DNA of 64,000 nucleotides from Pomacea canaliculata. Its lineage: Eukaryota; Mollusca; Gastropoda; Architaenioglossa; Ampullariidae. This document shows positions 2,172 to 60,900 of this stretch, in pieces. Where the stretch lies: positions 24,795,868 to 24,859,867 of the forward strand of contig NC_037593.1 in the NCBI RefSeq assembly GCF_003073045.1. The letters are read 5' to 3'. Every line of letters starts with the position of its first letter. The stretch's first letter is position 1. Position numbers and translations under genes: made by a program. The notes beneath the pieces are model-generated. The model was not told the origin of the DNA and ran no database searches. It worked only from the letters and a program-made list of their open reading frames with translations.

Positions 2172-2408
2172 ACAGCAAAAGTAATCATTATGATTGTAGC
2201 GGTAGCACCGAAGTGAGCTCTCAGTAACAGCGAGGAAGCACTCGGAGGCTAGCTGTCTTCTACACACGTTTTGATGACGTCATGCAAAAAAAAAGTTCAT
2301 CGCTCAAGGGAAACTACTCTTCAAAAGTTAGGGAGGGGTCAAGAATAGTTTGTGACTTACTTCCCCTACACACGTTCAACTTTGTTATTATCACACTAAA
2401 TTGCAAAG
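2172..2408 (+). promoter_or_regulatory. Shared 5' module promoter, gene A copy
   Basis: This stretch aligns with the DNA just upstream of exon 1 of genes B, C and D. Conserved blocks, in order, are GTAATCATTATGA, a CAGTAACAGCGA block, a palindromic CRE/ATF site TGACGTCA at 2275-2282, a CAAGGGAA-CTACTCTT block and GTGACTTACTTCCCC close to the start codon. Conservation in four copies whose flanks differ argues for function. That CREB/ATF-type factors use the octamer is established for animals in general; its use here is inferred. The transcription start cannot be placed from sequence alone. Confidence 0.65.
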
Positions 2409-5400
2409 ATGTCACAGAAATTTCATCGCGTGCGTAATGGCATGGCTGATAAAGAGACGCTGGAAGTGTGTTTTGCGGTCGACTCAGACGAGGATCGTGA
2501 TATTGTAGCTGAAGATGACAATACTGAAGGGAGAACTTTCGAGGAAGAAGTCCCGCCACAAGTTTGTAAAAACGCGTGTTCAGTAAGAAAACCCCACATG
2601 GTAAGTCAGCACATGATGAGTCTCAAGTTTTTAGATGATTTCTATGACTGATGAGTTATAGGCTATGTCCCTTCAGTAAAGTAAAAAGCTTTTATCCACC
2701 TTATTGTCCTGGATGTAACCTAACTGACTGAGGAGGAAATGGTGGCATTACAGTGTCCGTCGTAGTATACCGTCTGTAGTTTAATATCATCATACTCGAA
2801 GCTCCGACCAACCTAAATCCACCGCCAAACTAAGATCATATCCAGTATGGCGTGTTGTTTTGTAAGGTTTTATGAATGAATCGATACTGCATAGACATCT
2901 CCAATTTTACTTTGCGTAGTAATTCAAACCGCCGGTGTTATCATGAATGCATGTTGGTTTTTAAAAAAGTCAAGGACGTGATATTAGTTCGTGAAATAAA
3001 TCGAGAGAAAAGGTCCTCATAACTATATGCCTACTTTACAAGAAATTGAGAGGAGATATCTTAATAAAATCCCTTTCCAAAAAATGCAAAATGCGATTGT
3101 CTTATGAGAATGCAATTTTTTCACGATTAGCTGGAATTCACTAGCATTCTACTAACGCCCCATAGGATTATGTTGCAAACACACAATTTTAACTTTTTGG
3201 TCGGCTTAATACCAAGGACTGTAGAATCTTTTGGCACCAGAATTTTGTATATCGAGTGTGGACAAAATAGAATCAAAGAGAGGAAATGTACATAAATATA
3301 AATTGGTTTCACTTTATGCATAACACCCCTTACTCTTACAGACAAATGTGTTATTTTAATTCTGACTTGTGTGATAATGAGAAAAGTGAAAGAATATTAA
3401 AATATTTTATATAATATTTAGTTTCAGAAAGCTGTCTGGGGCTTCAAAAGAAGCACAGCATTGACAGTGTTTCTAAAGCGCCAAAAGCGAAAGGAGGGTG
3501 AAAGTAAGTATCCTATTTTAGCAAGAGCACAAAAATATCCCTGTAACCTTTAACCTACACTGATTGTTGAAAACCAGGCACTTTCCCTAAGCCATCACCC
3601 ATCCCAAAATCAAAACAGTCTAATGGTTTGGATTACGGATATGTAATTTTTTCAAATGACTATTTGTATTTATTTACAGGTAATGTAGCATTTCTTGCAA
3701 GAGGCAGGGCAGAATATGCAGCTCTGTCACCTCTTGAGAAAAAAAAACTGGCGACAGAAGCTGCATCCAATACTCTTCCAGAAACTCTGGAAGAAAAAAA
3801 AGAATATCTTAAGCAGCTCATGCGCCAACTACACAAAGTGGTGAGTGTTCACCACATCACTTAGACACTGGTATGAAATGTACATGATTCCTTTTCTCCT
3901 TTGTTTAACTTTACACTGATATATATATTAGATGTATACAGGTGCACTTTACATTTATTTGCAATCTAATAATAAAAGTACAATTGAATCTTCTACTTTG
4001 CAGGAAAATGTTCTTGCACACATTGGTGCAACATACTACATTGAAATAAATTTTGACGACACGAATCATACTTTCGCACATGATAGCATTCCTAGACATG
4101 TGCTACAAGAGACTCGATATCCATTGCAGGCACCTTTATCAAACGTCGCATATCTGCGCAAGTGTGTGCAGAAAATTTTTAATGATGCATATGGTGAGAA
4201 ACTGTCGATATTGTATCCCTTCGAAAATATGTAAAATACTTGCCATCAGAAAAAGGACTTTTATATTTTTCTTAAAGGTGTCATGCTATAGAGGAAATGC
4301 AATCAGCTTACAGGCATAGATTTTGTTTTTATGACCAACAAAGTCAGTATAGAAGATGCTGGGAAAACCTGCTTTTTCCATTACTAGTAGATGCAGGATG
4401 AGCTAAGAAACTGCTATAGCAAGTATGAGCACAGCAGTTAAGCTTTCTGCTGTCTTGGGGCATGAGTTACACAGTATTAGAGCATCTCAGTGTTCTGAGG
4501 AACTGAGTTGCTTTCGAACATTCTAGAAGAATTATAAGTAGGTAATATGTATTTATTGTATTGTGCAGATAATTTTATACCATCTTATCTGACCTGTGAA
4601 TGTTTGATTTCAGCCAAAGCATTGGGAAAGGAGGAGTGCAACACCAACTTCCCCTACAAGAGACACTCTCTTTCACCTGTAGTCAAAATTACAGGAATGC
4701 CAGAAGGTGTTAAATTTAAACACCCTTCCAATTATGGAGCAGGAACATTAAAACAAATAGTTGCCATCAAGGCAAATATCAAGATGGAGCTCATAGCCCC
4801 AAGGTACATTTTTATAGTTTTATAGTTACTCGTACAGCAGAATCAGAATGTAAACAAAAGAAGCTGCATATACTGTATATTTTTGTATGCTATATAATGT
4901 GCTGTTGTATAAAAAATAATGTACCTGGACAGATGTGGTCCACGGCCCATTAAGTTTTTTGTCAAACACAAGGAAGAATTATTGTATTGTATACCTGATT
5001 AAAATATCATTGGTGTGCAGTGCCCCAGAAGTCATACAAACCGGTGTGGTGGAACATATGTGAGTATATTGTACTGTGAGACACTCGAGTCGCTATAAGG
5101 TTATGGTACAATGATGTCACAGTGCAGTGTGGCAGAAGACTCAAGTCTGTGTGCTGCAGAAGTGGTACACTGGTGGTGGTGGATATATGAGTATATTACT
5201 GTGAGACACTGGAAAATAAATACAACGTATGTGAAAACAGCAGTAGTGGATTTTATTTTCAATATTTTTTACAGAAACAGATCATTTCTGACTATGTTCA
5301 TTCTGAATAGTACAGTACAGTGTGAGATCTCATGCTTAACTCGTTGGTTTCTTCAGTTTCGTGGCAGGAGAATCAGCTTCAGAAGTGGTACAAACTACCT

Positions 5401-8400
5401 TGGTGCAGGATATGTGAGTATGTTTTACTGTTTTCCAATGATTTGTACAGAAACAGATCAGTTCTCACCAACTGATCAATATATAAACAGCAATACAGGA
5501 TTCCAATGGGTCTGTTCATTCTGAAAAGTACAAAACAATGTGCGAATTTACACAAAATCTTTGGTTTCGTCAGTTTTGTGATAAGTTTATGGCACAATTA
5601 TGTATTCCATCTACACAAATGTCATTGTGCAGTGTGGCAGAAGACCCGAGTCAGTGTGCTGCAGAAGTACAAACACCGGTAGTGGCGGCTATGTGAGTAT
5701 ATTACTGTGAGACACTGGAGAATAAATACAATGTATGTGGAAATAGCAGCAGTGGATTTTACTTTCAATATTTTTTACAGAAACAAATCAACTCTAACCA
5801 TATATACATTATGTAGGATTCCCATAGGTCTGTTCATTATAATTAGTACAGTACCGTGTGAGATCTCATACTTACCACTTTGGTTTCTTCAGTTTCACGG
5901 CAGAAGAGCCAGATACAGAAGTGGTACAAACCACCTTGGTGCAGGACATGTGAGTATATTTTACTATTTACATGATTGTTTTCCAATAATTTGTACAGAA
6001 ACAGATCAGTTCTAAAAATATAAGATTCCAATGGGTCTATTCACTCTAAAAAGTGCAGTACAATGTTAGATTTCATGCTTACCTCTTTTATTTCTTCAGT
6101 TTCATAGTAGAAGACCCAGCTTTAGAAGTGATACAAACACCAGTGGTGGCGGATATGTGAGTATATTACTGTGAGACACTAGAGAATTAATATAATGTAT
6201 ATAGAAATAGCAGCAATGGATTTTATTTTCAATATTTTTTACAGAAACAAATCAGTTCTAACAATATGGGATTCCATTGTGTCTGTTCATTCTAAATATT
6301 ACATTACAGTGTCAGACATCATACTTATCTCTTTGGTTTCTTTAGTTTCATGGCAGAAGACCCAGCTTCAGAAGTGGTACAAAGACCGGTGGTGGCAGAT
6401 ATGTGAGTATATTACTGTGAGACACTCTAGAATAAATACATTGTATGTGGAAATAGCAGCAGTGGACTTTAATTTCAATTTTTTTTTTTACGGAAACAAA
6501 TCAGCTCTAACAATATGGGATTCCATTGTGTCTGTTCATTCTAAATATTACATTACAGTGTCAGACATCATACTTACCTCTTTGGTTTCTTTAGTTTCAT
6601 GGCAGAAGACCCAGCTTCAGAAATGGTACAAAGACCAGTGGTGGCAGATATGTGAGTATATTACTGTGAGACACTCTAGAATAAATACATTGTATGTGGA
6701 AATAGCAGCAGTGGATTTTAATTTCAATTTTTTTTTTACGGAAACAAATCAGCTCTAACAATATGGGAGTCCATTGTGTCTGTTCATTCTAAATATTACA
6801 TTACAGTGTCAGACATCATACTTACCTCTTTGGTTTCTTTAGCTTTGTGGCAGAAGACCCAGCTTCACAAGTGGTACAGACCACCTTGGTGCAGGATATG
6901 TGAGTATATTTTGCTATATTACACTGTAAAATATGGTGAATAGTATAGAATAGTATGAAAATATGTAAGTCTAATGTAACTGTCATTATTGTGCAATGCA
7001 GAAAAAGAATGTAGCAACTGAAGTGCTGCATTATTACCCGAGAATGTTGGATTTATCAGAATCATTCACAGAGCTTTTGATAAACAATTTTGTATGATTA
7101 TTTACATTGATTAATTTGCTGTGTTTTCTTTTTATTCTGACCAGGCAAGAGGGGCCCACAAGCAGTTCGCAAATTAGTAAGGCAACTGATTTTCTCATTA
7201 ATGCATGCAAAGGAAGCAAAAATTAAATATATCTGTGATATGCAGTATGTCAATGCAAACATGTATTTGCTCCTTGTCTGATATTATGTAAACATCAAAA
7301 ACCCCATTTAGATTCTGTTAAAGCAGAGACATAATTGCAGGATGCAGTGTCTGAGATAGCTGAACAGATGACTGTTTTGCTGCCCGTCATCCGTCCCAAA
7401 TTCTGTGACAACACCAAATGTACACAAGAAACACCTTGTTTGTAGTCATTACAGTATCCTGCCTATGTAAATCAACACCAATTTTTGTTAACACAATGCT
7501 AAGGCTACTGTTTGTTCCCTCATGAAGGCAAATTTTGAAAGGTCTTAGTCAAACAAAACAGATGGGTCATAGTGAGAGCAGGCATTGATAAAATCATTTA
7601 TTTCTTATTTTTTACTTTGTCTATTTATTTGTGTACAGGTACAGTACAGGATTCTGCAAAGCAGCAGCAGGAATCAGGGAGAAAAAAGAAAAGAACAGGT
7701 GATAATTCTTCATGTTCCCTGATAAAAGAAAAATTTTGAAAGATCTCAGCTAAATGAAACAGATGGGTCGTATTGAGAAGCAGACATTCATAAAATCATT
7801 TATTTCTTACTTTTTTACTTTTTCCATTCATTTGTGTACAGGTACAAGAAAGGATTCCGCAAAGCAACAGCAGGAATCAGGGGAGACGAAGCAAAGAACA
7901 GGTGATAATTCTTCGTTGATAGGTTTTATAGGACAAAGTTTCCAGCTGTTCCACTTTTCTGGTTGACTGTATTGTTAACTGCAGTGATGTATATGTCTGT
8001 AGACATTGTCCTGTGTTTGAGAAGTCACAGCCTTCAGGCATGCTTATCAACAAATATATCTTTCTGATGCCAGCAATATTTGTATTGATGCTGAGTCACA
8101 ACTCTTATTTCATGTTATTGTGCAGGACTCAGAACTCTGTGGACAGCAGCAGAAGTACTTCTTGTTCAGCAACACTTCGGTGAGGAGTTGGCCGGGCTGA
8201 AGCCAGTGTCACGCAGCAGCATTGACAGTTTTCTGGAGCAACAAACAGTGGTCAAAAGGACTTCTACTGCATTGGGAAATTATCTGTTAAGGAACAGGTA
8301 ACTGCAACACTTACACAATTAAGGATACCTGTCAGCATGAGCCTCTATAGCTAGAAGAAAACAATTATATCTTCATTGTCTTCAGTATCAGTCTGTTAGG

Positions 8401-8772
8401 GTGGGTGGGTACCACTAAAATCCCACTAGGCAAGACATCAAACAAAGTAACTAGGGTTGGATAAGACACACCCTGCACAACCCTGCTGAAACCAGTGCCA
8501 GGCAGGCGTTCGAATGCAACCCTCAGGGGAAGAGGATAGTTGGGAGGCCAAAGCAGACTTGGAAAAGATCAGTAGAGAGCAAGGCAATGGATGCCGAAGC
8601 CACATGAGCCCCATTAAACTAAATAAATGGTGGTGGTGTCAGCTGCACTTAGAATTTGTAATAATGGCATATGATATTCATTTCTTCTTGTGCAGCTTGA
8701 AACAGATAATTTTTATTAATCTCACCTGTAACTTCATGTTTCAGGAAGAAAAGCAGACCTGATGATCAGTAG
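2409..8772 (+). CDS. Gene A: HMG-like and SANT-like protein with mini-exon array
   Basis: Exons: 2409-2600, 3428-3503, 3680-3840, 4004-4193, 4614-4803, 5021-5059, seven mini-exons (5357-5413, 5633-5692, 5893-5949, 6100-6156, 6346-6402, 6595-6651, 6843-6899), 7145-7176, 7639-7698, 7842-7901, 8126-8297, 8745-8772. All introns are GT-AG, phases agree and the total is 1602 nt (533 residues). Residues 1-64 are acidic. Residues about 70-125 are weakly HMG-box-like (A-L-T-V-F...L-S-P-L-E-K-K-K-L). Residues 270-417 are acidic/valine repeats. Basic Gln/Lys segments follow, then a helical domain starting L-W-T-A-A-E-V-L-L-V with S-S-I-D-S-F-L-E-Q and R-T-S-T-A-L-G-N-Y-L-L-R-N, resembling SANT/Myb-like domains, and a basic end K-K-S-R-P-D-D-Q. 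A nuclear DNA-binding role is inferred; no enzyme motif is visible. Exon 2 could instead start at 3422, which adds two codons. The counterpart of exon 5 of B and C was not found. Confidence 0.72.
5298..6920 (+). repeat. Tandem mini-exon array of gene A
   Basis: Repeat units of roughly 200-275 bp, each holding one mini-exon. A unit runs from donor GTGAGTATAT through a conserved intron (GAGACACT, then AATAAATACA, GGAAATAGCAGCAGTGGA, then an acceptor-like TTTTTTACAG, then TCTGTTCATTCTAA) to the acceptor TTCTTCAG, TTCTTTAG or ATTGTGCAG. Each exon begins and ends in phase 2, so any number can be joined without frame change. The encoded unit resembles F-M-A-E-D-P-A-S-E-V-V-Q-T-T-L-V-Q-D. Units ending at 6402 and 6651 are nearly identical, so they duplicated recently. 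A further copy at 5128-5186 has lost both the symmetric length (59 nt) and the donor (AT in place of GT), and looks dead. Confidence 0.85.
8395..8660 (+). mobile_element. LINE 3' fragment in intron of gene A
   Basis: Conceptual translation of 8510-8630 reads N-P-Q-G-K-R-I-V-G-R-P-K-Q-T-W-K-R-S then V-E-S-K-A-M-D-A-E-A-T, the ending typical of non-LTR reverse transcriptase ORFs that carry G-R-P-x-x-T-W. Stops follow, so it is decayed. It sits in the last intron. The same fragment lies in the same intron of gene B (43530-43775), so insertion preceded the segmental duplication. Confidence 0.6.
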
Positions 8773-9072
8773 TGAATCGCAGCACCTTATCACCAAGACT
8801 GATGACGCTTGAGATATTGGATTGAGTCTTAAGGGCATTCTGTACTTTCAAGACGCATTTTCACTGCCATGTGCTATCTGCTTCACAGAGCTGACTGATG
8901 TGTGGGTTCTTTCTGGGTACTCCACCTTCTTATCACCAACCACCTGTGTGATAATGTTCCATGATGCAGCCCACCAAATTCAAGACATTAAAAAATTGCA
9001 ATTTTTCCTTTTTGGTAGCTGTCAGTTACATTGAATTATATGTATTCTTCATTGCTTTGATGTCTTTGCAGA

Positions 9073-9078
9073 AATAAA
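9073..9078 (+). terminator. Candidate polyadenylation signal, gene A
   Basis: AATAAA lies about 300 nt after the stop and is conserved at the matching place in gene B (44185-44190). A second AATAAA occurs near 9544, so the true 3' end is not certain. Confidence 0.45.
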
Positions 9079-9079
9079 G

Positions 9080-10224
9080 CATTTGCCCAGTGATGGGATT
9101 TGATCCCAGTACAGAAAAAAATACGACTTGTATGATTAGTTGTGACACTTGCCTCATAAGGTATATGTTTCTATCCATGTGATTATGACATGGTAGGGTG
9201 TTGTGGTTGTGTGGCTGTTACGTAGGTTCGGATGTTATGAACTAATTATTTGATCTACACTGTTGGTGTTGCTATTGGTTGTGTTGTAACTGAATATATA
9301 AAAATGTAAAGAAGTTATGAATGTGGAAGATTGTAAGTTTTTTAATTGGTCTGTATGGTTAAATTTGTTGCTGGCATGTGTTTGTGCGACGGTGCTTCTC
9401 AGGATTCATCATTAAAAAAAAAATGTTATTGTTATTTTGGTGTTTTTGATACAATGAAAAATTATTGTCTCAAGTATTGGTTCATTATCATATCTTGTCT
9501 ATCCAACTTAAGAATGAAGGATGACCAATGTCATTCCTTGTCAAATAAAACCAAACATACTGTATCATATAATCTATCATTTCTTGGCTTCATTCCTTGG
9601 CTGTTCTTTGTGCTGAACTGTTTTGTCATAGAATAAGAAGTTCTTATCTGGTCCTTGCACGACCGCCTAGAAGTTTTGGGGACATATCATTGGGTTGTTA
9701 CTGTGTCTGGACCTGATTCTGGTTGAGGAAAGAATGTGCTTTAGTGTCTGATCTTCAAAGCAGCACCGAGTGTTTTGACTGTCCTCTTCGCTAGCTACTT
9801 TCAATTTTTGGTTCTTTTTCGCCTGAGAAATCGAGTGGGTTGTAGCCTGAGTTCTTTTACAGGTTCATGACAGAGTAACCAAACATGTATGTAATATAAT
9901 AAAGTACCTGAACAAACCTGTGAGCACAAGATACACATAAACATGTAGTAGGTTTATATAACATGTACGTAAATAGAATACACAAAATGTGAAATTGGAC
10001 TATGTCCTGCTATCCAGTATTGGGTCCTCCCAATTCGTATAAGGGTTCAAATGTCTTGGGAAGGCGTCATGTTCACTCATCTGATACAATGGCAACTTCA
10101 ACAGAAAAGGTAATTCTTTATCTGCATCCATCAACATGCCCAGGATTGTTCCAGCCATCGTATGTCTAGAAACAGCTGTTGGTGGGGTTCCTGTAAAAAA
10201 AAGAATATACCTATACCGTCTGTC
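9080..10224. other. 3' flank of gene A
   Basis: Up to 10080 this is the downstream part of the segmental duplication shared with gene B. I see no coding exon. Parts may be 3' untranslated sequence. From 10081 to 10224 nothing was recognised. Confidence 0.45.
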
Positions 10225-10500
10225 ACGCAGAAGCACAGTTATGGAGATCCTCAACTGTCACATCCTTATAAAGAAGCATCTTCAGCGGGAATTCTATCCA
10301 AACTTCATCACCCTGGTGGTGCCGATCCTCACCTACGGGTGTGACAAAGGACTGTGCTCGCCGAAACGAAAAGGAGAATCCAGGCATTCGAGAACAAGTG
10401 CCTGAGGAAGGTGGCCGATGCTGTGGTGGCCAAAGGAAGAACTGGCTTACGAACCTCAAAGACTGGAATGGTTGTCCTGTGCTCAACTGTTTCACCATCT
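10225..10500 (+). mobile_element. LINE reverse-transcriptase C-terminal remnant
   Basis: Plus-strand translation contains V-V-P-I-L-T-Y-G-C followed, in a shifted frame, by A-E-T-K-R-R-I-Q-A-F-E-N-K-C-L-R-K. This is the conserved end of many non-LTR reverse transcriptases (S-I-L-L-Y-G-C ... R-I-x-A-F-E-x-x-C-L-R). The frame change and later stops show decay. It lies just outside the end of the segmental duplication. Confidence 0.6.
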
Positions 10501-17826: not shown

Positions 17827-17900
17827 CAGGCCCGTTCTTAGCCCCCGCGGGGCCCGAGGCAAAAGTCATGTGCGGGGCCCTCACGCCACGATCACACGGT
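17827..17900. mobile_element. hAT-like terminal fragment
   Basis: Starts CAGGCCCGTTCTTAG and continues GC-rich with GCGGGGCCC, resembling the ends of the hAT-type element at 48759-49223. No matching inverted end was found downstream, so it is a fragment or a chance match. Confidence 0.3.
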
Positions 17901-18149
17901 TTTAGTTGGGATGTGACTGTGGGTGGAATTTGTTGTCATTACAGTCACTGGCCACTGGCCACTAAACCAAAACAGGGCCAACATATAGTGCCTGTGTCTG
18001 GACTCTAGATTGTGGGTGTCAAGAAAAGAAGCAGTTTAATATCAGCTGGCTTCGATTCTTAGCACCAGCAGGTCTGTACCACTGACCACTGTACACACAT
18101 ATTTATCAACAAAATTAACATGAAAATGGTGATTTTATATATAGAGAGA

Positions 18150-18715: not shown

Positions 18716-18976
18716 AAACAAGAAGATACAGCAATACATAAACAAGTAATCTCACATCTCTTGAAAGTTGTATAAAAAGAACAGCACAAGTCTATAACTA
18801 TAGCTACTTTACCATGGACAAATTAAAATTAAAAAACATCTTCAGCAACAGATAGTTATAAAATATTGTCATAGTTGACACAACTTCACAGGGGTTTGTT
18901 TTTTGGTGGGTTTTTTTGACAATTTTTGCTTTTGTAAGGTTTTCCTGATTTAAGAGGTGAATGACAAAGTCAAGAG

Positions 18977-46983: not shown

Positions 46984-47735
46984 AGTTTGAGCAAGTTGCA
47001 AAGCGCACACGACACATAAATGACAAGCTCGTATATCTAATTTCCGCTTGTAAGTAAGAACATAATTTCCACGAATTTTTGACTCGTATCTCGATTTCTC
47101 GATTTACTTGTAGATTAGTTCACTGTAGTATGTGGAAGTCTTACTGTATAGTGTATATAATCAGTATTTATCATCAGTCAACAAAACAGTGTACCCAGGC
47201 GACGAGAGGTAATTTTTGTCTCTATTTAAAACTTTAATTTTAATGAAAATATAATGATAGGTGTTTTCAAACGTCAAACTGGCAACAGCTGATCGAGTTT
47301 GCTCCGTTCCCCAAAACATTTTATAAACATTTACAAAGGGTTCTCTACCATTTGTAAATCTTTATAAAATGTTTAAATGCCATCTGGATCGTCTGCAACA
47401 GTTGAATCAAATATGGTTTTGATTCTGGATACAAGACTAGTACATTAAAGGCAATGGGTGAATGGTAAACCCACATTTCTTTTTATCTCAGTGTCCAAGC
47501 TTAAACGTCAAACAAAAGTAATCATTATGACAGTCAGTAGCGGTAGAACCGAAGTGCCCTTTCAGTAACAGCGACTGAGCGATCGGAGACTAGCACATGT
47601 GTCCTCCACATGTTTTGATGACGTCATGAGAAAAGGCTCGTCGGGTAAGGGAAGCTACTCTTTACAATACAAAGAGCTAGTTTGTGACTTACTTCCCCTA
47701 CCCACGTTCAACTTTCTTATTACCACCTAAGTTAG
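46984..47735 (+). promoter_or_regulatory. Shared 5' module promoter, gene C copy with long upstream duplication
   Basis: The proximal part (from about 47501) has the same blocks as in A, B and D, with TGACGTCA at 47619-47626. Upstream, 46984-47500 also matches 57213-57720 before gene D, so C and D share about 500 bp more than A and B do. Part of this (about 47010-47130), read on the minus strand, has CAGTGAACTAATCTACAAG and CGAGATACGAG motifs resembling a mariner/Tigger end, so an old element may be embedded in the shared upstream DNA. Confidence 0.6.
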
Positions 47736-50700
47736 ATGATGGCACACAAATTTCATCGTGGGCATAGAAGTATGGCTGATAAAGAGATGCTAGAAGTGTG
47801 TTCAGCGATCGACTCAGACGAAGATCGTGATGTTGTAGCTGAAGTTGACTACACTGAAGGGAGAACTTCCGAGGACGAATTCCCGCCACAAGTTTATAAA
47901 AAGACAGCAAAGAAAAGCCGCATGGTGAGTCAGCACATGATCAGTCTCATATGTGATATGCCTTTCCAGTTTCTAGAAAATCTCTATGATTGATCAGTGA
48001 TAGGTCCCTTCATTACAGCGGCAGTATCAAAACTTTCGTTTTTATGAGGTGAGGAGCATCACGGAATACACCTAGTTCGTGCTATACCGAACATGTGCTA
48101 GGCATCCACAATTTAGTAACCACCCGCTGCACGCCTGCTAAACTGAACGATCCCGTGGTTTCGAGGTGTAGCTCAGCAGGCACTGTACCGCGGCACTCAG
48201 ATAAGGACCACACTCCAGCTTAGTAGCGCTGAGCTATAATAAGACCACCTTGCTCTCGCGTGACATGCAAATGTCGGGGCTAGGCCAACTAAAGCGAAGG
48301 CGACCATCGAAAAAACTGCTCGGTGCTATAACCAGTTCAAGGCCCACGCAATAATCATGACACCAATAACATATGCTTCTTATATATTAGATGTTATTGT
48401 CTTCTGTATTTGAAGTGTAAGTGGTTCTATATACAATGGTTTTTTTGCTTGTTTGGTTTTTTTTTGTGTGTGTTTTTTGACGATCAGCTCGGCTTGCTTG
48501 AATGAGGTCGATTCGATCATAGGACAACTCGACCAAGTCCTTTAGTCTATTAGACACAAATATAAATGACTTTTGCAGTAGTTTTGATTCTTAGATATTA
48601 GAAGAAGCTATTCTACATGCAACAAAGGTTGTTGCTGCTATTTTTTTTTAAAAAGCCCTTTGTCTATCACTCTTCTCCGTTATTGTGTGAACAAAATAAT
48701 CTTTTACATGGTCAAATTGGTAGATATATATATAGTGGGATCGACCAATCCCTCGAATCAGAAGCGGCGTTAGGAACACGCGGGGCCTGGGGCCGACCAT
48801 CCGCGCGGGGCCGGGGTAATGGAGTACGTGTATCAATATCCCTATTGATATGATGCCGGAAGTACTGATTTATATACAGTTAGATAGGCTGGATAAATTT
48901 CGCGAAATAACGAACGAATTTAGCGTTTTAATTGTTCGTAACCGTTTGTGACAGAAGCGGTTTTTTCTTAAAGCGAAATAATATGGTGACGATAACTTAA
49001 TAAACTGCTTGTTATTATTGTCGGGTTTAACGTGAAGACATGGGTTCAATAATTTGCTTCATTAGAACTTAGAAGTGTTTTCTGAACGTCAATTTTTGTC
49101 ACAACATGTTTAACACAGCTAGCAATAAGTCATAAAGATGACCTCTGGGCTAATACGCGGGGCCCCTTCGAGAGCGGGGCCTGGGGCGGCCGCCCCATTT
49201 GCCACCCCCTAACGCCGCCGCTGCCTCGAATGAGTGGAGGGGGGGGTACAACATTGTAAACAATGAAATGTTAATATATTATTATTAGCAAGCAGTTAAC
49301 AGTTCCAATAAATGGAAGTAAAAAGTCTTTGTCATGGTTTAATTGTTAAGCTGTATTGCTTTTTGTTTTAATTTGATAAATAAAATTCCGTCGAAAATCA
49401 ATTATTATTTTATGAAAGGACACTTTTTCACATTTGCGTGTTTAGAATTACCTGTGAAAAGTCGCAATAAAAATTGTGAACACGTATAATTTTTGGAGGG
49501 ACTCTTCGCTATTTTCGTCAATCCCAAAGTTGCATTTTTTAGACTTTTTTGTTAATTGTATCACCCCTTCCCTTGTAGCGAGACAAATGTTCCAACCTAA
49601 GAATCTTATTCCAAGTGAGGAATGCAGACGCTGGGTCTTCTAGTGTTGCTGAATGATTTAGCAGACATTTTCGTGGTATTTGTTTATCAAAACTAAAAAT
49701 AAATCGTGAGTTGTATGTGTTAAGCTTTTTCGTGTTATTTTTATTTAAATTTGACTTGTAGTTACTCTGTAGCAGACAATCAAACACCCACTTGCGCAGT
49801 GATATTGAAAGAAAATAGTGCACTATCCACATCTCTTTGCAAGCTGTAATAATTTGAACCTAAAAGTTTCTTGTGTTTCTCAACTGTTAAATTTAATTTT
49901 GTAGTATGCACAGACCACTGGCTCTCGCTGAGAGTTCAGTTCTGTCCTTACAAGAAAACGCATACCTCGATCACTTGGAACGAGATTCTAGGTTGTAACA
50001 TCTGTCTCACTAAACGTACCCTCCCCATGGAGTCCGTCAAAAGGCAAAGAAAAACAAGTGAAAATTGCAGCTTTCCCCCCCCCCTCCCTCTGACATACAG
50101 GAACAATAACCCAATTAACAATAGGTCATTTTCTGCGGTAGATTTGATCTACATACTTATTGCAATCTACATTCTCTACGGACTTGCATATTGTATATAT
50201 CAACATGGTTTAAATTCCATATATCAGATAGTCAAATCAGCTGTACAACAGCTAAATAGCATCTTCTCGTTAAATTTTAAGTCCCAGAATAAGTAAAGCC
50301 TGGACAAATGAATGTTTGTAAGCGATAATTCTACTTATGAAATAACTTTTTTCCTCAAAGGCATACATTTTGGAAATATAACACATTTAGCCCATTAAAA
50401 TTCATTAGTCTACACTCCAAGTCAGTATAGCCTTCTAACTGTAAAATCCACACAGCCACAAGGCCGTCTATTATTCAGCGTCAGTAGTAATAGAAGGAAA
50501 TTTAGCGCTTAAAAGAGAAATAACAGGCCTTAAAAAGAAGCGAAGTAAAGTAAATTTAGCTATTACTTACCCTTAAGCATAACCATTCAACTACCAAGCC
50601 CTCCAAAAGAAAAGAAAATTAAGAACAATGGAAAGATATAGGTTACATATATTTTTAGTTTACTGCCTGATTTTACAAAGTGCAGCAAGAGAAGTTGTTT

Positions 50701-53700
50701 GAATTTTAAAGTACAAAGTTAAATTTGAATGTATGTGAGAGAGCTAGAGACGCATACAGTGTGAGATCTACAAATTATGGCTACTGTTTTAATTTTCGAG
50801 TGATAACCGTGGGAACAAAAGACTAACAAAAACATTTTTTTGTCTCTTCAGATTATGGAAGGAAAACGAATGACAGCTTTTAATGCTTTCTGTAGTGAAA
50901 AAAGGAAAGGTATGTGAGCAAAGACAAATTTCTGCCCGGGGTCTCCTGGGCAGACAATAAAGTCTGGTTTGATTTTTGATTTTTGATTTGATTTGATTTT
51001 GTAGTTTTGTATATGCTATGTACATTTATTGTCAAAGATTGCAGTGATTCTGTTTGTTCTTGCATATGATTGCATTTCAAAACAAATGCTATATTTTAAT
51101 TGTAGCTAATACACAAGTCATCGTATGTGACTGTTCTTATGGTGTTCGTAAGCTGTTTATTGTGATTTTTGAAACAGTCATATAAGCAAGGTACATGGCA
51201 AAAGCAGCAGCAGAGAGTGTAATGGATCTTTCTAAAGCAAATTCAACTGTTTATTATTATTAGTGGCTAGCGGGAAATCAGTCTTCAGGGAATTTCTATA
51301 GTTCAAACTGAGAGACTCCATCATAGAAAATTTCTGTAGTCATAAGTATATATATTATTTGGTGGTATTGTACAAATTTATTTTTTAGTACGTTGGAATG
51401 ATGAGAGTATACATATTTCATAACCTGATCTTTTATATTGGTTGTGTCTTTCCAATTTTGCAAGTCTTGTTTTGTTTTTTAATATAATTACTTGAAACCA
51501 AATGAGAGTAAGATTTTTTCTTGCAAGTGACTATGTATCTAGGGGTGTCTCATTCCACATGCTTATCACACATCTGAGTCCTTAGTTCTACTTTGTTCAT
51601 TCAAGTACTCCATATATGTATGTGTGTGTCCACATGCGTGCATACATGTGTCATCAGGAAACCCCGGTGCTGGCTTTCGGATGACGATGTGGGCCAGAGA
51701 GTGGCATCAACTAAGCTGTGAGGCCAAGAAATATTATAAAGAGAAGGCCCAGGCTTTAGGAAAGAAATGTGCTGCAGTAAACTCCCTTTGGAAGATAAAG
51801 AAACTGGTAGGTTTTACAGTTTTACAACACTTGGTTCCTACTCTACTGCATTCTGCAAAAGTTGACCAAATTTTTTCAATTTCCTTCTGATCACGATGCC
51901 ATAAAAAGATATTATTCCTCAACTGTTTGGGACAAATTTCTATAGTTGGGAAAGATAAGCTGTGATACATTAGCCAATGATGATATATTATCAGACAATA
52001 AACTAGAGTGTAAAGTGCACAAGTTAAATCGTTTAAACATGCTTATGTTGTGACTTCAAATAATATTGGAGAATGTTACAGATAAACAGCCTTGAAGGCA
52101 CAAGTGACAGGGAAGCTCTAGGGATTCAAGCCATAGGCCTTGTGATATTAAAAAATGGCACTCTGGACGCTTATGGCTTTGGTGGACTTCAAAACTGCCT
52201 GAAGGATATGGCCCTACATCTAAAACTGTTAGGGCTCAGCACAGGAGGGGACATGGCTAATAGTAAGCATTTTATAGACTGCACTCCATGTCAGGATGAG
52301 TGTCAAGCTGTTTTCGTATCATTCTTTCTGAAGCAATTGGTCTTATATAAATTAGAGAAAAGAGGAAAGAATTTGTTCACATTTCTTTCTAAGTGCTCAT
52401 AATTGCATCATTTACTCCAGTATTGCTGTAATAAGTAAGTGATCATTGACACCTTTCCAAGTTGGCTTTATGCATCATATAAATAATGTTTCATTTTTGT
52501 CATGATACATGTTTGTTTTGCAGTTAAAAAAAGCACTATTGACGAATTGCGCAAGCAAGCTCAAAGAAAAATGTCAAAAATTGCAAGTAAGTAAATCATT
52601 TTATATTCACTTTCTGGTTAACCCCATCTTTGGGGATAAGAAAGTGTCATGTTTGTTAAAAAATTTCTTGTTGTCCTTGTAAGACAAGATAGAAATATAC
52701 ATATAGTACTTTCTGATTTTCTGCTTTTGGTCCTCAGTGTTAAAATTATGTTCTTTTATCACATGAATTTTCAGTCTCTGTTTTCTGATTGTTGCTTGAG
52801 ATGCATGTCTTTCATAACCTCTCATCTGTTTATTGTTTTCCCCATGGAGTACACATCTGTCTCAATCTCTGAATCACTTGCCTTATAAAATCTCACTCTT
52901 GGATTATTGTGAAGAAACGTACCAATGTATACAAACTTTTGTGGTATTAATATTCATGTGCTGTATTGCTAAAAGAATTAAAGAGATCTATTTTAGTACA
53001 TTTAGCTACATAAACAGTCCAAAGCACTCACCCAATGTCGTCTATGTGTTTTAAATTTTTGTGAGTGTGATCATTTATGAAAAACAGATTGCTAACAGAT
53101 TCTAGTCACAGATAATGGGTACAATATGCTAAATTTTTGTAGACTTCTATGTTGGTGGTCATTGCCAGGGGGAAGCATGAACCATGGAAATGTCACAAAC
53201 TGGTACTTGTTAAGGTTGTCTCTTTCATACTGATGATGTAAATCAAAGCAGATTGTAGTTTGAGGAATCTCATTGCCCTGTATTTGTATTTTCAGAAGAG
53301 CAACTGGGACTAAACCAGTTTCCCTACAAAAGGGTTCAGAAGGGAGACTTTATTTTATCAGGTATTCCTCCCTCGCTTCTTCCGCTGCAGCCTGCTGGGA
53401 AGCTGGCCATTAAAGATCTGGAAGAGCTCCTTGCAGCACATATATCTGTCTCGAGGTACCAACAAGTGTGGCTTGAAAAGTTAGAATATCCGTGTACAAT
53501 GATGCTTAAAATATTTGTAGGCAAATATTTCAAAATAAAATATTTTTAATAATGAAGGTTTGTGTTTGTGCTGTAAATTAGACAAATTTCTGCTTATTAT
53601 GAGTAATTTTTCAACCATTAAATTTTAACCGTGATTTGATCTTTGGTCCAACTATGTCACTTATGAATGAAAAGCTGCTACCTAGGACATGTATGCATTA

Positions 53701-55919
53701 TGTTGTTTGTGACGTAATTATGGCTAAATCCAACTGCTTAAAGATAGTCTTTTGAAAATTTTGATGTTAATATTTACTGCTTCACATTATAAACACACTA
53801 ATCTTTCTACTGAACTTCCATAGTACAAACCACGAGTGACATTTAAGAAGCAACACATATTCTGGGCAGTGTGTGTGTGTGAGCAAGTTTGCATGGTGGT
53901 TTTAGTATGTCTACACATGTAGTCAGTGGCGATTTAAAATGTGTGAGTAGTTTATTGTGGGTAGTGGTGTAGCATGAAGCTGAAAGAGAATAAAAGAAAG
54001 TGCATGCTTGTGTACATACACATGTATTTGCATGTGTACATCAAAGTGTGCACCTTGTGAGTGGTGGGAGAGGAGCATCCTTTTTTTTTTTTCTGCAGCA
54101 GTTCACTTCCTAGGCACACAATAATAATGCATGAAGTGTGAGAAATAGTGTAAGTGTGTAACTGGCATTCAACGAGTAGCGGCCATCATCAAGATGTTCC
54201 CCATGTAGTGTCAATTATTCTTTTTCTTCTTATACAGGGTTCCCAGGTCCTTGCAAGGTCCTTTTAAGTCCTTTTATATTGAATTTTTGCCAAAAGGCCT
54301 TTTAAGTCCTTTTATTTGCCATGCGGTCCTTTCAAATTCTCACACAGGTCCTTACATTTTCTCTGTGACCCTTTTAAGTCCTTTTATCGATAAAATATTA
54401 CCACAAATTTATTTCCGGAGTCGACTTTGGCGCAAAATACCGACGATTTTTCGCCGCATGTTTTGTCTACACATCTGTACAACACTAGTTGCCCTTCCGT
54501 ATTCGCAAAAAACACTCTTTTTAAAAAGTCTTTAGAAACTTACTCTTTCTTGAACTTTGATCTTCTAGTACTACTGTGCATAGCTCTATTTCTCTCTCTC
54601 TCTCTTCCCGTTAGAGTGTGCGTGCGAGAGAGAGACACGTGAACTGACTTTTGTATTACACCAAAGAATGGCTTTCAGGTTTTGCAATTATTATTACTTA
54701 GATTTCTAGAAAACTTGGAACATTAACGGTGTATGTTATCAGCGCGCTAAGGACACTTTTTAAGTTATCTAATCTAAATATGGCAGACAGGCATCAAAAT
54801 TAACTCTTTGATTATTTATTACTAGAAATACATGTATTTGAGAACATAGAGAAGACCACAGATCATAAATAATACATCTTTCCGACCACACAAGAGAAAA
54901 ACATAAGCATTGATGACTGTCACTTAGGTCCTTACGAATGCATGAAAGGTCCTTTTAAGGTCCTTTTTTGGCACCATCCCTGATCCCTGGGAACCCTGTT
55001 ATATCAAGTCATATTTGAGGACCTGGGTACAAAAATGGTGTCGTTTTCATAGGCTTTACATATATTTGTTAGGGTTTTCTTTTTTCAGAGTACCAGCTGC
55101 ACGGCAGGCCAAAGGCACAGACTTGCCACAGGCTGTTGCAGTTCAAGTCACAGAGTTGCCGCAGGAAGCTGTAGTGCAAGTCATAGATATGCCACAAGAA
55201 GCTGCAGTGGAAGTCTGTGACTCACCACAGGAGGCGGTACGAAACCTGAACTTGCTACCACCCAGCCACAACAGTCTTCCAAAAAGAGTCCCAACATCCA
55301 AGGCAGAAAATACGGCCAAAAGTAAGAACTGCATAAAGTAACTTGTTTCAGGATTATGTTATAATTTTATGTTTCATTCATTAATGAACACTTTTTTAAT
55401 ATGTGTTTAACCACTGTTCATGGTTGTTGAAAGATAAAACTTTTTCCTGTGTTCAATTCATTAGTTAGCCATACTGTACTGACTAAGCATAAGGCCTAGT
55501 GTGGTGCTTTTTTTTATAAAAGCTAATCCGGACAGAAGCAACAGTGCGTAATGGCTTCCTTTGAACTTTCCATTCTTTGCTTCCTTTTGAGTCACTTGTG
55601 AATGTGGACTCTAAATATATAAATATGTGTCTGCATGAATGTTTCAGAAAGAAATATTAAGCACATCTTATATATTTTCTTTTGCTATACCATAGTGTTA
55701 GTGACAATTGTCAGACTATTGGTTATTATTACATGCATTCTGAAATGTGCAGAACCAAGAAAGGAATGGGATGAAGAAGCTCTGAAAGCAGTTGAAGAGC
55801 TACTGCATGGACCACCTGTAGGGCTTCACCAGCTGGAGGAGCTGAAAGGACAGATTCCAGCACTGACCAAATTTTCTGCAATGCAGATTTATGTAAAATT
55901 ATATAGCAGAAAGCAATGA
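47736..55919 (+). CDS. Gene C: HMG-like and SANT-like protein without mini-exons
   Basis: Exons: 47736-47924, 50852-50909, 51658-51806, 52082-52262, 52524-52586, 53296-53455, 55089-55321, 55753-55919. Total 1200 nt, 399 residues, all GT-AG. The layout matches gene B exon for exon through exon 6. The HMG-box-like segment (about 70-115) has M-T-A-F-N-A-F-C-S-E, W-H-Q-L-S and A-K-K-Y-Y-K-E-K-A-Q-A-L. Exon 5 has D-E-L-R-K-Q...K-M-S-K-I-A, as in B. Exon 6 has L-G-L-N-Q-F-P-Y and G-I-P-P-S-L-L-P-L-Q-P. Exon 7 has four internal P-Q-(E)-A-V repeats and stands where A and B carry mini-exons. The last exon begins with W-D-E-E-A-L-K-A-V-E-E-L and ends R-K-Q, a diverged version of the Trp-led C-terminal domain. 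Function is inferred to be nuclear. Confidence 0.75.
48759..49223. mobile_element. Nonautonomous hAT element with perfect 8 bp target duplication
   Basis: The 465 bp element is flanked on both sides by CCTCGAAT (48751-48758 and 49224-49231), the 8 bp duplication expected of hAT. Its ends are inverted repeats: CAGAAGCGGCGTTAGG on the left and CAGCGGCGGCGTTAGG read inward from the right (14 of 16). GC-rich GCGGGGCC blocks lie inside both ends and the centre is AT-rich. There is no coding capacity, so it is a MITE-type derivative. It lies in intron 1 of gene C. Confidence 0.9.
49232..50851. other. Rest of intron 1 of gene C
   Basis: No exon or transposon end was recognised. An open frame at 49871-50296 has hydrophobic and low-complexity parts but no splice or start context, and I do not call it. 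Confidence 0.4.
50935..51005. repeat. TTTGATT-type short tandem tail
   Basis: GGTCTCCTGGGCAGACAATA followed by repeated TTTGATT units. This resembles the 3' tail of a SINE or LINE, but the body is not recognisable. It lies in intron 2 of gene C. Confidence 0.35.
54235..54998. mobile_element. hAT-like element with CAGGGTTCCCAGG ends
   Basis: Left end CAGGGTTCCCAGG at 54235 and right end CCTGGGAACCCTG at 54998 are a perfect 13 bp inverted repeat. TTATA flanks both sides (54230-54234 and 54999-55003). Subterminal GGTCCTTTTAAGTCC-type repeats occur at both ends. CAGGG ends suggest hAT; the visible target duplication is 5 bp, shorter than the usual 8. The element is 764 bp, with no transposase seen, and lies in intron 6 of gene C. 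Confidence 0.7.
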
Positions 55920-57212
55920 AAAAAAATGTGATTACACACGACTTGCTCATTGTACACATGATGTTTGCCATATACATCTTTACGACACGGATGTTTTCGT
56001 GAATGAAACAGCCAACAAAGCTACTGCTAATAATAATAACTTACAATGCTCTTTTATATCCATGAAGGCGTACAGAAAGTCACAATCCACAAGGAAGTAA
56101 ACACGACATTAAAAAAGCCTCACTTGATGTGTTCTTTTGTCACCGGACATGAGGTTCTTAGAATTCACATCTACTTATTCACTGAGCCATTCCCATGAAT
56201 GGACGCTATATCCCCTTTGAATAATACAGTTGCATGGTCGGGACATGAGACTTGTTCGACACGAAGCCATGTTTAAGATCGATCCTTCGAGTGAACTAAA
56301 TAGTGGTTATATTTTAAGGCAAGAAAAGCGAACTCGCTGCCCCAACACCTATAATATCACATAACACTAACGGTTGCCATTATCCCGTAACGTTAATGTA
56401 ACAATGGGCGTTCTTAAAATTCACATTCGAATGTACACTGCACTTAAAATGGAAAGAAAACGCCACCTGGAATTATGGACAGCGATGTGCTGCTTAGCAG
56501 AAAAGCAGGTGTCAGGTCTGGGGGATGGTTCACCGTACACCTTTGTTTACAGTGCAAATTATTTTGCCAGTGGTCTCCTACCCGACCAAGCTGTTATGTT
56601 TGCTACTGACGGCTCTTGAGCTCATTCGAATGTGAATTCTGCAGCTGATTACTTAAGCAGTCAACTATAAGAGATAAAGAGAGTAGGTTAAATAGCGGTT
56701 ACAGTTGTAGAGCGTTCAGTGTGTACTTCGTGCAAAAAAAAGGTGAACATTTTATGAGGTTAGGATATTGCACATTGGGTTGTCTCTTTATAGAACTTTT
56801 GAATTGAGAGTTAAACCTCCCAGCACACCAGCACCACCTTCTCCCTTACCCCCACGTAAAAGTTTTTGTCTCCCAGTCGTCCTCTCCATGCTACCTAGAA
56901 CTTCTCTTTCACCGTCTCAAGCGCGCACATGAAAACAACGTGCACGCACAAATAACATGAAAATATTACAAACACTACCACTTTATTTATGATATCAAAA
57001 CTCACTCTCGGGGTGTAGAATGAGAGTTTGAAATGTGCAACACATGTTCTCTCTAAGACCATGAGTATTAGAAGTGTAGATACACAGCAGACGAGTTAAC
57101 ATTGCTCACCAAGCCTACATCTAAAAGCAAGAGGTATTCGATTTACATTTGGTTCATTTTGCATTTTATTGGTTTGTTTTTAAACATTCGTTGCAGTCAT
57201 ATTTATTGTTCT
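55920..57212. other. Spacer between genes C and D
   Basis: No exon was recognised. A short inverted pair, TTCACATTCGAATG near 56420 and CATTCGAATGTGAA near 56622, could be the ends of a small MITE but no target duplication was seen. The last 35 bases match 63556-63590 just past gene D. Confidence 0.4.
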
Positions 57213-57917
57213 CAGTTCGAGCAAGAGCGCACGACACATAAATGACAAGCTCGTATATCTAATTTCCGCTTGTAAGTAAGAACACAATTTCCACGAATTT
57301 TTGGCTCGTATCTCGATTTACTTGTAGATTGGCTCACTGTAGTATGTGGAAGTCTTACTGTATAGTGTATATAATCAGTATTTATCATCAGTCAACAAAA
57401 CAGTGTACCCGGGTGACGAGGGGTAATTTTTGTCTCTATTTAAAACTTTAATTTTAATGAAAATATAATGATAGGTGTTTTCAAACGTGAAACTGGCAAC
57501 AGCTGATCGAGTTTGCTCCGTTCCCCAAAACATTTTATAAACATTTACAAAGGGTTCTCTACCATTTGTAAACGTTTATAAAATGTTTAAAAGCTATCTG
57601 GATCGTCTGCAACAGTTGAATCAAATACGGTTTTGATTCTGTATACAAGAATAGTACATTAAAGGCAATGGGTGAATGGTAAACCCACATTTCTTTTTAT
57701 CTCAGTGTCCAAGCTTAAACGTCAAACAAAAGTAATCATTATGACAGTAGCAGTAGAACCGAAGTGCCCTGTCAGTAACAGCGACTGACACGTGTTTTGA
57801 TGACGTCACGAGAAACGTCTCATCGGCCAAGGGAAGCTACTCTTTACAATACAAGGAACTAGTTTGTGACTTACTTCCCCTACGCACGTTTAACTTTCTT
57901 ATTACCTTCTAAGTTAA
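57213..57917 (+). promoter_or_regulatory. Shared 5' module promoter, gene D copy
   Basis: Matches 46984-47735 upstream of gene C almost throughout, apart from a deletion before the CRE site, which here is TGACGTCA at 57801-57808. The GTGACTTACTTCCCC block is kept close to the start codon. Confidence 0.65.
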
Positions 57918-60900
57918 ATGATGGCACAGAAATTTCATCGTGCGCATAGAGGAATGGCTGATAAAGAGATGCTAGAAGTGTGTTCAGCGATCGACTCAGA
58001 CGAAGATCGTGATGTTGTAGCAGAAGTTGACTACACTGAAGGGAGAACTTCCGAGGACGAAGTCCCTCCACAAGTTTGTAAAAAGACAGCAAAGAAAAGC
58101 CACATGGTGAGTCAGCACATGATCAGTCTCAAATGTGATACGACTTTCCAGTTTCTAGAAAATCTCTATGATTAATCAGTGATAGGTCCCTTCGTTACAG
58201 CGGCAAAATAAAAACTTTGGTTTTTATGAGCTGAAGATCTAAGGTGAAAGGGTATTTAACCAGTTCGTGCCATACAGAACATGTGCCACGCACCAACAAT
58301 AATTTCTATTTAGTAAGGTTTGCTACATAGTATGTTCCACTTTATGCGGTCTCTTTCGTAAGACATTAACAAGTTACTGTCCCAAGACATTATTTCAAGG
58401 CCAGTAGCACCATCGATCATTACCCAAATGAGATTTGTGCGTTTCCAATCCTTGAAACGTTTCAAAAACGTTAGCATGGTTGTAATAACGTTAAAGTTTT
58501 AGATAAAACATTTGCAAACATGTAAACGAAAATATGAAATAAGTGTATCGTGAACATTTAAAACATTAAAATTAGTTATTTACTATTCTCAAAAATATGT
58601 TTAAAGAATTTAATATGCCTCATCGATATATGTGAGATTTGAAAATCGTTGCGTTTTTCACTAAATGCAGTACCTGTATGCATATTTGGCTATTCCACTT
58701 GTGGATTCACTCCCTTAAGTGATACCCTGCATATTTTTTTCTTCTGTTGTGTCTGCGTGATAAAACCAGTGTTTTAGTGCAACTTATGATTTAATTTTTT
58801 CTTGTAAGGTGTGATTTGTAAAACAAATTTTTCTTTTTGTACAATGTGTACATAGTCGAACACAGTTCAAATCATATCTTCCTACTGGACAAAGGGGAGA
58901 AGGGTGACTAAGATTGTAGAAACAGAGTTAATGGAACTGAAAGAAGAAAGACAGAGCTATTTAATACACTCTGACACAAATAATCACAATTTGCAGGCCT
59001 GTGGAGAAAGTGTTAGAAGTTTTTAACAGTAGTTTGAACCAGCAGACACCAGAAATCTCAACTACAAAACCTGAAATCTCAGAAACAACATCAGGCCAAT
59101 ATTCACATGCTGAATATAACTTGGATGAAAATAGTGATGAGGATGATTTTGAGAAATCATATTTTAGTGAATTTGAAGATTTTATTGATGTCAATTTAAT
59201 TCAGTGATATCTCCAAACAGTAAAAGTAAAACAGCTACAGATTTGGTCACACAGTGGGCATATTGGGCCATAACTTTTAACATTTTCTGCAGTTCACTTT
59301 CAGCATTTCTTGCCTTGTTATACCAAAAGTATGAGGGAGCTTCCAAAAGATTTTGGATTTGCAGAAGTGTTTTTAAAGAAGCCATTTTTGATAGGACTGT
59401 TTTATGGGGAATCAAGCCCAAAACCCTTGAATTTTTAAATGCCTTTGTCCAAGAGTTAAAGTAATCAGGGGTTAAACATGATGAGTTGTTAATAAATATA
59501 TCAACATATGTATGAGATGCACCTGTTAGGTCCTTCATAAAAAATAGTAAACCTCACATGTGATACTCTAACTGTGAAAGATGTACACACACGTTTGGAA
59601 GATTAAAATTACATTTACATATAGTAAAGCCAGTGGCAGACATTACGTCGAAAAATGTTATACTTCCATACAGACAAGGCTTTGTTGTTATTCCAATGAT
59701 TCATTTCAACAATTAAAGTTGTGTGATCTGCTTCACAGCTAAAAAATAAAAAGGAAGGTTTGGGGGAGTAAATGGTATTGAAAGACATGATAAATGGGAA
59801 GTACTCTATACTGTAATATTTTCAATAGGAAGCAAGGGTATTTAGTACAGCAAAAAAAAAATTTTTGCATCACATTGACACTGGGCAGGATTAAGTGGAA
59901 ACCATGTAGTGTTTACATTTTCTTTTGAAATTTCATTATACTTTCCATACTTTGCCTAATTATGATTCTACTGGAAAGTTTAAATTTGTTTTACTCACAA
60001 AACAGTGTCATGCCTCTCTGGACATTTGTCATTGTTGAGTTTACAAAGGCCTTGTTGACATTGTCCACCATACATGGCTGAAGACTTCAGTACTTTAGGA
60101 TGGTGTAAGTTGCAGGTTCATGTTTGTGTGTGCGCATGTGCAGTATCTGACTATACCGTTGCCAGTTATGTGCTATCTGCTTGAATTTAATTCATTGTTG
60201 TACTATTATCTAAGGCATAAATAGTACCGCTTTTATTGTGCTTAGCAAACATTTCTGGTTATGATGTATATTTCAGCGTGTTACATGTTCTTAAAATTTC
60301 CTTCATGGGTGATAGTTTTATTTTTCAGCACTCTAAGAGGGCAGCATACTTGTCATCAAGGGAGGTGACAAAACATGCGAAGGAGGAAACTCTGCCAGAT
60401 AGGTGTACCTGGACTCGTCCTGATGTTCACATTTTGGGTTCAAGGGGTACTTTTCTGTTTGTTAATTGTCATATATGTTATACATAGTTATAGATTGGAT
60501 GTTTGATTACTTCATCAGCCTGGTTAGTCTATTTATGCAATTTAAAAGTACTGTGCCTATTTATTTTTTTGTCAGTGTCTATTTCACACAGACCTTACTT
60601 AGGGTTTATTGTGGTTACAGACTGGAACATACAGCTGCATGACCATTAACATATCTACTAAATGGTCTGTGGTCTCAGTTTCAGACAGTTAACTAATTGC
60701 AAAATCTGCACAATATCCTGTGGTAAAGCAATGCATGCCATTATTTACCATGTACTTCATAAAGAAATGACCTTTTCAGATCAGTTTTTGGTTACCAGAA
60801 AAGCAGATAGTAGCCAGCATTCATCAAATCTTGATACATCAGACGGTGACAGCAAAAGATGTTGGAAAGAACAGAAGAGGAAGAGAAACAAGTATGCACA

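Follow-up and report, generated by a model that had tools for sequence, protein, structure and literature searches.

Why should four neighboring genes with different bodies begin with the same promoter and the same first exon? The question arises from a 64,000-nucleotide stretch of the genome of the snail Pomacea canaliculata (C4:24795868-24859867; hereafter the window, in which all positions below are counted unless a contig is named). An earlier sequence-only reading of the window had proposed a portable 5′ module, composed of a promoter with a cAMP response element (CRE) and an acidic first exon, that gives unrelated proteins the same regulation and the same N-terminus. We compared the four units with one another and with the genome (440,159,624 bases, 24 contigs). 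On balance, the locus probably represents a locally duplicated host 5′ module joined to element-borne genes, with predicted splicing producing probable chimeric proteins of the DNA-binding type. This reverses the portable module: the first exon would be local and private, and the bodies would come from dispersed mobile-element-like families.

Four homologous promoter and first-exon modules

Copies of the promoter and first exon were found at all four places where they had been reported, and all six pairs were joined by self-BLAST at E ≤ 1.2e-94, indicating homology and not chance. The aligned stretches lie within 2161-2681, 35559-36172, 46982-48119, and 57212-58323. The alignment of the four modules, designated A to D, runs from the CRE through the leader and exon 1 into the first part of intron 1. 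Their features are as follows.

2161-2695, + strand: module A, with the end of a dispersed CRE-bearing repeat, leader, exon 1, donor, and ~95 nt of intron (self-BLAST 2161-2681)
2275-2282, + strand: CRE palindrome TGACGTCA of module A
2409-2600, + strand: exon 1 of A, 64 codons, open frame, ending in phase 0
35559-36187, + strand: module B, 93% identical to module C across 35559-36165
35665-35672, + strand: CRE palindrome TGACGTCA of module B
35785-35970, + strand: exon 1 of B, 62 codons, open frame
46984-48117, + strand: module C (by self-BLAST), with an extra 0.5 kb of upstream repeat common to D
47619-47626, + strand: CRE palindrome TGACGTCA of module C
47739-47924, + strand: exon 1 of C, 62 codons, open frame, final residues R-M
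57212-58426, + strand: module D, 89% identical to module C across 1.1 kb
57801-57808, + strand: CRE palindrome TGACGTCA of module D
57921-58106, + strand: exon 1 of D, 62 codons, open frame

The 5′ edge of the A family near 2695 was called by eye against copies on C2 and C3. The palindrome TGACGTCA is present at each of the four positions given for it previously, 120 bp before the ATG in B, C, and D and 134 bp before it in A. A fifth copy in the window, at 17105, is not within any module. Genome-wide, TGACGTCA occurs 29,559 times, compared with 12,000 times for the reversed control.

The acidic exon 1 (62-64 amino acids) is open in all four modules, and the A copy differs in length by 6 nt, in frame. 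A phase-0 donor directly follows the exon (GTAAGT in A; GTGAGT in B, C, and D), and the 20 nt after the donor are nearly identical across the four copies. The reported phase-0 end therefore holds for every copy, and the reported terminal H-M holds for all except copy C. The identity of A with B, C, and D was 79-84% up to the CRE, 69-77% from the CRE to the ATG, 83-85% in exon 1, and 61-64% deeper in the intron. The corresponding pairwise values among B, C, and D were 92-97%, 88%, 95-96%, and 77-95%. Because identity is higher in the exon than between the CRE and the ATG, exon 1 appears to have been kept better than the leader. Searches with the exon-1 peptide found nothing in Pfam at E ≤ 1 (D copy), in NCBIfam (A and D copies), or in the PDB (A copy).

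Genomic distribution of exon 1 and of the CRE

The exon-1 peptide was searched against the whole genome with the D copy and then the A copy as query (E ≤ 10). Both searches returned the same four places, all in the window, so that the peptide is limited to one 56-kb locus. No further copy was found before another gene or at the dispersed relatives of the bodies described below, either by the genome searches or by tblastn of the fetched loci. These results do not support a portable cassette: it is the bodies that are dispersed.

The DNA of module D gave 14 matches, 10 of which were outside the window and covered only parts of its first 117 bases. When the upstream region of C was used (40 of 177 candidates scored), 13 of 54 rows covered parts of 47388-47639. 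Among the matches listed, these 13 were all outside the window at 70-77% identity, six extended to the CRE, and three stopped 13 bp beyond it. Furthermore, the 18-mer CAYRTTTTGATGACGTCA spanning the CRE occurs 39 times in the genome, two of these being modules A and C, and its reversed control was absent. Since the 18-mer is repeated and outside matches reach the CRE, the CRE is inherited from an old dispersed repeat. It is not a private promoter element, and its function as a CRE is putative.

A 74-bp palindromic short repeat (47314-47387), with 88-92% identical copies elsewhere, is nested in the upstream repeat of C and D.

Bodies A, B, and C

Three of the modules are followed by the bodies listed here.

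2695-10480, + strand: body A, element-like, with exons at approximately 3428-3503, 3680-3840, 4004-4193, and 4614-4803 and a tail of repeated short exon-like units
36188-45203, + strand: body B, an HMG-like/GTF2I-like element gene, with exons at approximately 37612-37675, 38309-38460, 38865-39035, 39363-39425, and 39681-39891 (5′ edge called by eye)
48118-56508, + strand: body C, an HMG-like/GTF2I-like gene, with exons at approximately 50852-50909, 51658-51806, 52082-52262, 52524-52586, and 53296-53455; further 3′ exons are possible

In body A, exons 4004-4193 and 4614-4803 together form a GTF2I-like repeat (PF02946; E = 7.4e-17, 61.9 bits, cut-off 27). As the repeat spans the join of exons 4 and 5, it supports that splice. 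PF02946 is found at 20 places in the genome; B and C did not reach its Pfam cut-off. The profile of the B/C exon matched the GTF2I repeat in PDB 2dzr, a GTF2IRD1 repeat structure (E 4.5e-4). This match was preferred to a profile-profile alignment between the A repeat and the B/C exon, which was not convincing (probability 3.8%, E 0.011). The HMG box (PF00505, cut-off 25.4) scored 15.9 bits in B (E 0.019) and 14.5 bits in C (E 0.048), and we therefore call these bodies HMG-like only. The peptides given had no SANT/Myb match in Pfam at E ≤ 1. Of the HMG-like/SANT-like character claimed for the three bodies, the HMG-like part stands, below the cut-off, for B and C, and the SANT-like part had no Pfam support. 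Judged from their sequences, the A, B, and C bodies are one HMG-like/GTF2I-like family, and the claim that the module heads unrelated proteins fails for these three.

Relatives of all three bodies were found elsewhere in the genome. When 40 of 58 candidates were scored, body A gave at least 84 rows, of which at least 77 lie outside the window, and a relative on C21 matches its tail as far as 10480. Body B gave 65 matches at E ≤ 1, 58 of them outside the window, with dispersed relatives on C6, C7, C9, C14, and C21; the copies on C6 and C7 are 99.5% identical across 3.2 kb. Body C has a near full-length relative at C11:10571238-10579307, whose edges match 48120 and 56508, and a partial relative on C7. 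Only 40 of 2006 candidates were scored for body C, mostly representing a high-copy insert, and other relatives may have been missed. This insert (~0.77 kb, 54234-54999) has at least 38 other copies at 96-100% identity and is absent from the C11 relative. Terminal inverted repeats (TIRs) were not found for body C. These results indicate dispersed families for the A, B, and C bodies, some copies having sharp edges; neither an element class nor a transposase was recognized in them. No native first exon was seen in the dispersed A- and B-type copies in lists of open reading frames (ORFs) or in a period-3 substitution scan, whose power is low (the reverse-strand control scored up to 7.5, equal to known exons).

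The tails of A and B (5026-6930 and 40949-42049) consist of tandem short exon-like units, many ~246 bp apart, and the number of units differs between the two. Inward-facing termini of the B family are separated by 23.3 kb on C21 and by 22.2 kb on C9 (C9:13409396-13431566). At the far end on C21 lies an inverted fragment of ~1.25 kb, 95% identical to the near end, which may point to a large TIR element. The paired termini suggested that such an element might be complete. The 9 kb of the C21 interior that were covered showed B-type tail and pieces like long interspersed nuclear elements (LINEs; by eye), and no replication or transposition gene was recognizable among the ORFs.

Body D

The body behind module D and the repeats that flank the unit are as follows.

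57166-57210, + strand: 45-bp direct repeat immediately before unit D, 93% identical to 63548-63592
58427-63547, + strand: body D, a diverged copy of a DUF4806 TIR element, with a candidate exon 2 at 60329 and the DUF4806 exon at approximately 62473-62635
63548-63592, + strand: the other copy of the 45-bp repeat, abutting the end of the truncated element

The sequence-only reading had placed a DUF4806 gene behind module D, and this was confirmed (PF16064; E = 1.9e-9, 38.1 bits, cut-off 25). DUF4806 is reported in PMC11075544 as a BEN-domain subtype, and PMC7642931 reports high numbers of it in Hydra, in a table that also gives transposase domains. All four bodies carry domains of the DNA-binding type, which speaks against four unrelated bodies. 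With 150 of 260 candidates scored, the DUF4806 protein of D had at least 152 exon-level matches in the genome at E ≤ 1, including three in the window. Seventeen D-type loci were fetched from outside the window, some copies being represented by two of these loci. Identity to the query copies is ~94-98% for all but three, which are more distant (mostly 81-94%). Nine of the nine outside loci that cover query residues 28-111 have one TGA in the exon whose counterpart in D is open; some weaker rows have none.

The copies on C3 and C7 represent an element of ~5.55 kb with 97% mutual identity, ends CCCAGATAGCATG...CATGCTATCTGGG, and inverted ends of ~0.2 kb. Body D showed BLAST similarity to these two elements over 58455-63024, introns included, and D-type element blocks are ~71-82% identical to D, again with the introns. 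The outer limits of body D were set by eye from a global alignment (likeness from ~58427 to ~63530), in which the 5′ end was recognizable and the 3′ TIR was not found. The 45-bp direct repeats bracket the module together with the truncated element, an arrangement that would fit insertion as one joined unit. No flanking direct repeats of this kind were found for A, B, or C.

Junctions between modules and bodies

Acceptors that open the next exon in phase 0, as had been reported, are readable at 3428 (A), 37612 (B), 50852 (C), and 60329 (D). Because exon 2 of A, B, and C is common by descent, this agreement in phase carries little weight. Exon 2 of A has no ATG and is preceded by an in-frame TAG (3419-3421), and an upstream coding exon is therefore required.

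At all four modules, the body begins ~95-320 bp after the module donor (edges of A and B by eye). Body C starts at 48118-48120, exactly where the similarity of its module to B and D ends. The C11 relative starts at the same base, behind a LINE piece with endonuclease and reverse-transcriptase Pfam matches, and has no module. The B-family copies on C6, C9, and C21 have a common start, (ATC)n-CCACCCGATGCGACC. Such sites number 14 in the genome (10 exact and 4 with one mismatch; 0 for the reversed control), and five of them lie 1.8-2.2 kb upstream of a B-family exon. Starts resembling this sequence were called by eye at ~2695 in A and 36188 in B. The C2 copy of the A-type body lies behind a LINE-like ORF, a label given by eye for which Pfam gave nothing, and the C14 copy of the B type is shorter at its 5′ side and lies ~1 kb behind an integrase piece. 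The coincidence of the C and D body edges with element edges favors bodies having arrived behind the module.

Histories of modules and bodies

The modules of B and C are 93% identical across 0.6 kb (88-100% by segment), whereas their bodies share one 89-bp DNA match. Conversely, the modules of A and B are ~77% alike and the middles of their bodies are unalike, whereas their 3′ tails (5285-10083 and 40937-45203) are ~90% identical. One 5′ module before different bodies, the core of the sequence-only reading, is supported, as is this disagreement between the two histories; a simple tandem family, in which module and body share one duplication history, is not. As tail identity exceeds module identity between A and B and the middles are unalike, exchange of segments within the cluster is real. 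Bodies may have been changed behind the modules, recombination may have exchanged modules and tails, or both processes may have acted. Separate arrival is favored by the sharp body edges and by the relatives without exon 1; modules may have moved to bodies, or bodies to modules.

Coding constraint

Constraint was expressed as w between a window copy and a dispersed relative, with frames chosen for the fewest stops in the window. For A and its C2 copy, w was 0.35 (0.19 in exon 2), and for B and its C21 copy, w was 0.23. Seven exons of C were tested against the C11 copy. The first four gave w of 0.12-0.48, with 5-12 changes each; the other three gave 0.41-0.78, with stops in the C11 copy there. 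The alignment of the C exon at 55090-55320 looks faulty (dN 1.17). The DUF4806 exon of D gave w = 0.31 against the element. By this measure, coding constraint is seen in the body exons of A and B and in part of those of C.

A probable chimeric origin and its alternatives

In the reading that we favor, a host module with a promoter lying partly in an old repeat, an acidic first exon, and a strong phase-0 donor would have been duplicated locally. Each copy would then have been joined to a different body from a mobile-element-like family, namely three HMG-like/GTF2I-like members (A, B, and C) and one DUF4806 TIR element (D), reported as BEN-like. Because the first main coding exon of the bodies has a phase-0 acceptor, splicing from the module donor could provide them with transcription, a start codon, and an acidic N-terminus. 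One promoter type would then drive four chimeric genes whose products are DNA-binding-type proteins. Recombination within the cluster also swaps pieces, as the A/B tails and middles show. The homologies, the restriction of exon 1 to the locus, the dispersal of the bodies, the edges of bodies C and D, the open frames, and the constraint on body exons are observed; we infer the splicing, the shared regulation, the nuclear function, and the order of these events.

Several observations weigh against this reading. Values of w span a window copy and its relative, so that the constraint may be that of the element family and not of the window genes. Overall w was 0.60 for C and 0.73 for D, and the candidate exon 2 of D (60329) gave w = 1.38, which indicates no purifying selection. 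The dN/dS of exon 1 between copies was 0.24-1.49, with few changes. Within the presumed intron 1 of D, 58990-59206 holds element-type N-terminal sequence that is open (w = 0.45), and D could therefore start there. Similarly, exon 2 of B and of C has its own early ATG, and these genes may not need exon 1 to start. Module sequence does not resume behind body C, which leaves a clean insertion into intron 1 conjectural. A transposase was not evident among the element ORFs listed, in which no systematic scan for one was made.

The possible starts within bodies B, C, and D are what a mere neighborhood would predict, in which the modules are a tandem promoter/exon relic or a short gene whose exon 1 is rarely or never spliced to bodies with starts of their own. 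The small weight of the phase agreement leaves room for this explanation, which we regard as doubtful but serious. Set against it are an exon whose frame stays open in four copies, its one length difference being in frame and its donor conserved, while the leaders differ by up to 31%; an exon 2 of A that has no start codon and shows conservation of its frame; and the start of a body within the same short distance of the donor at every module. The membership of A, B, and C in one family, together with the exchange of segments between A and B, would also be expected of an ordinary tandem family. In that case, an ancestral module and HMG/GTF2I-like body were duplicated long ago, the bodies diverged, and the likeness of the modules and of the A/B tails was maintained by gene conversion or unequal crossing-over; D would be a DUF4806 element that landed in intron 1 of one copy. 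We consider this history unlikely because relatives of all three body types occur elsewhere, where the exon-1 peptide was not found, and because the sharp 5′ edge that body C has in common with its C11 relative would be unneeded in a family that simply diverged in place. A module that forms the 5′ end of the mobile elements and travels with them might be suspected from the partly dispersed promoter region, which reaches ~13 bp past the CRE. This idea is largely refuted and very improbable: the peptide was found in no dispersed copy, and the module lies outside the 5′ edges of the C6, C9, C21, and C11 copies.

A stronger form of the chimeric-gene reading would make the locus an assembly site, at which a constant 5′ module recurrently traps element genes with a phase-0 acceptor and so makes new DNA-binding proteins under the same control. 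We regard this as speculative and rather improbable. Such trapping may even be necessary for the element families, since the few A- and B-type copies covered by the low-power scan had no recognizable native coding first exon.

Relation to known systems

The protocadherin and UGT1A clusters combine variable first exons with 3′ exons that are constant. Like them, the locus consists of repeated units in which one part is common and the other varies. Unlike them, it has the common and variable ends reversed, each copy has its own body, and no exon is made common by splicing. GTF2I/TFII-I repeat proteins (PF02946) resemble the bodies through the GTF2I-like repeat of A and the 2dzr match of B and C; they differ in that the snail family is dispersed and has a candidate HMG box and repeated short exon-like tail units.

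New transcription factors are known to arise when host promoters capture transposon exons. Host-transposase fusion genes include SETMAR, CSB-PGBD3, and KRABINER (Cosby et al. 2021, as cited in PMC12062965). As in the fusions outlined there, a host transcript would be spliced to an element-derived exon for a DNA-binding domain. By contrast with those fusions, the element parts here are HMG-like/GTF2I-like and DUF4806 genes without a recognized transposase, and the same host first exon is duplicated before at least two kinds of bodies in one locus. The host first exon was not found in the elements, all four copies being in the window, with the promoter partly in a dispersed repeat; element derivation of exons is seen in D, where homology to a TIR element includes the introns. 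Since no transposase was recognized and splicing is predicted, we describe the locus as working like a host-transposase fusion and do not class it as a member. The Caenorhabditis F-box A2 genes, which captured a Tc1/Mariner helix-turn-helix domain (PMC12062965), are likewise a multicopy host family with an element-derived DNA-binding domain. In the account given there, that family gained one element domain, whereas here one host first exon is found with several bodies.

What makes the locus noteworthy is the same host first exon before at least two kinds of element-borne genes that have DNA-binding-type domains and whose relatives are still dispersed. If the chimeric-gene reading is true, duplication, junction, splice use, and selection can be compared side by side in one species. 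Among the titles listed by literature searches, we found none describing this locus or such sharing of a first exon, although a title-level look is not proof of absence.

Other features of the window

Between units A and B, at 13190-21911, three of the six ORFs tested matched immunoglobulin families weakly, below the Pfam cut-offs. This region is possibly a cluster of immunoglobulin-domain genes on both strands.

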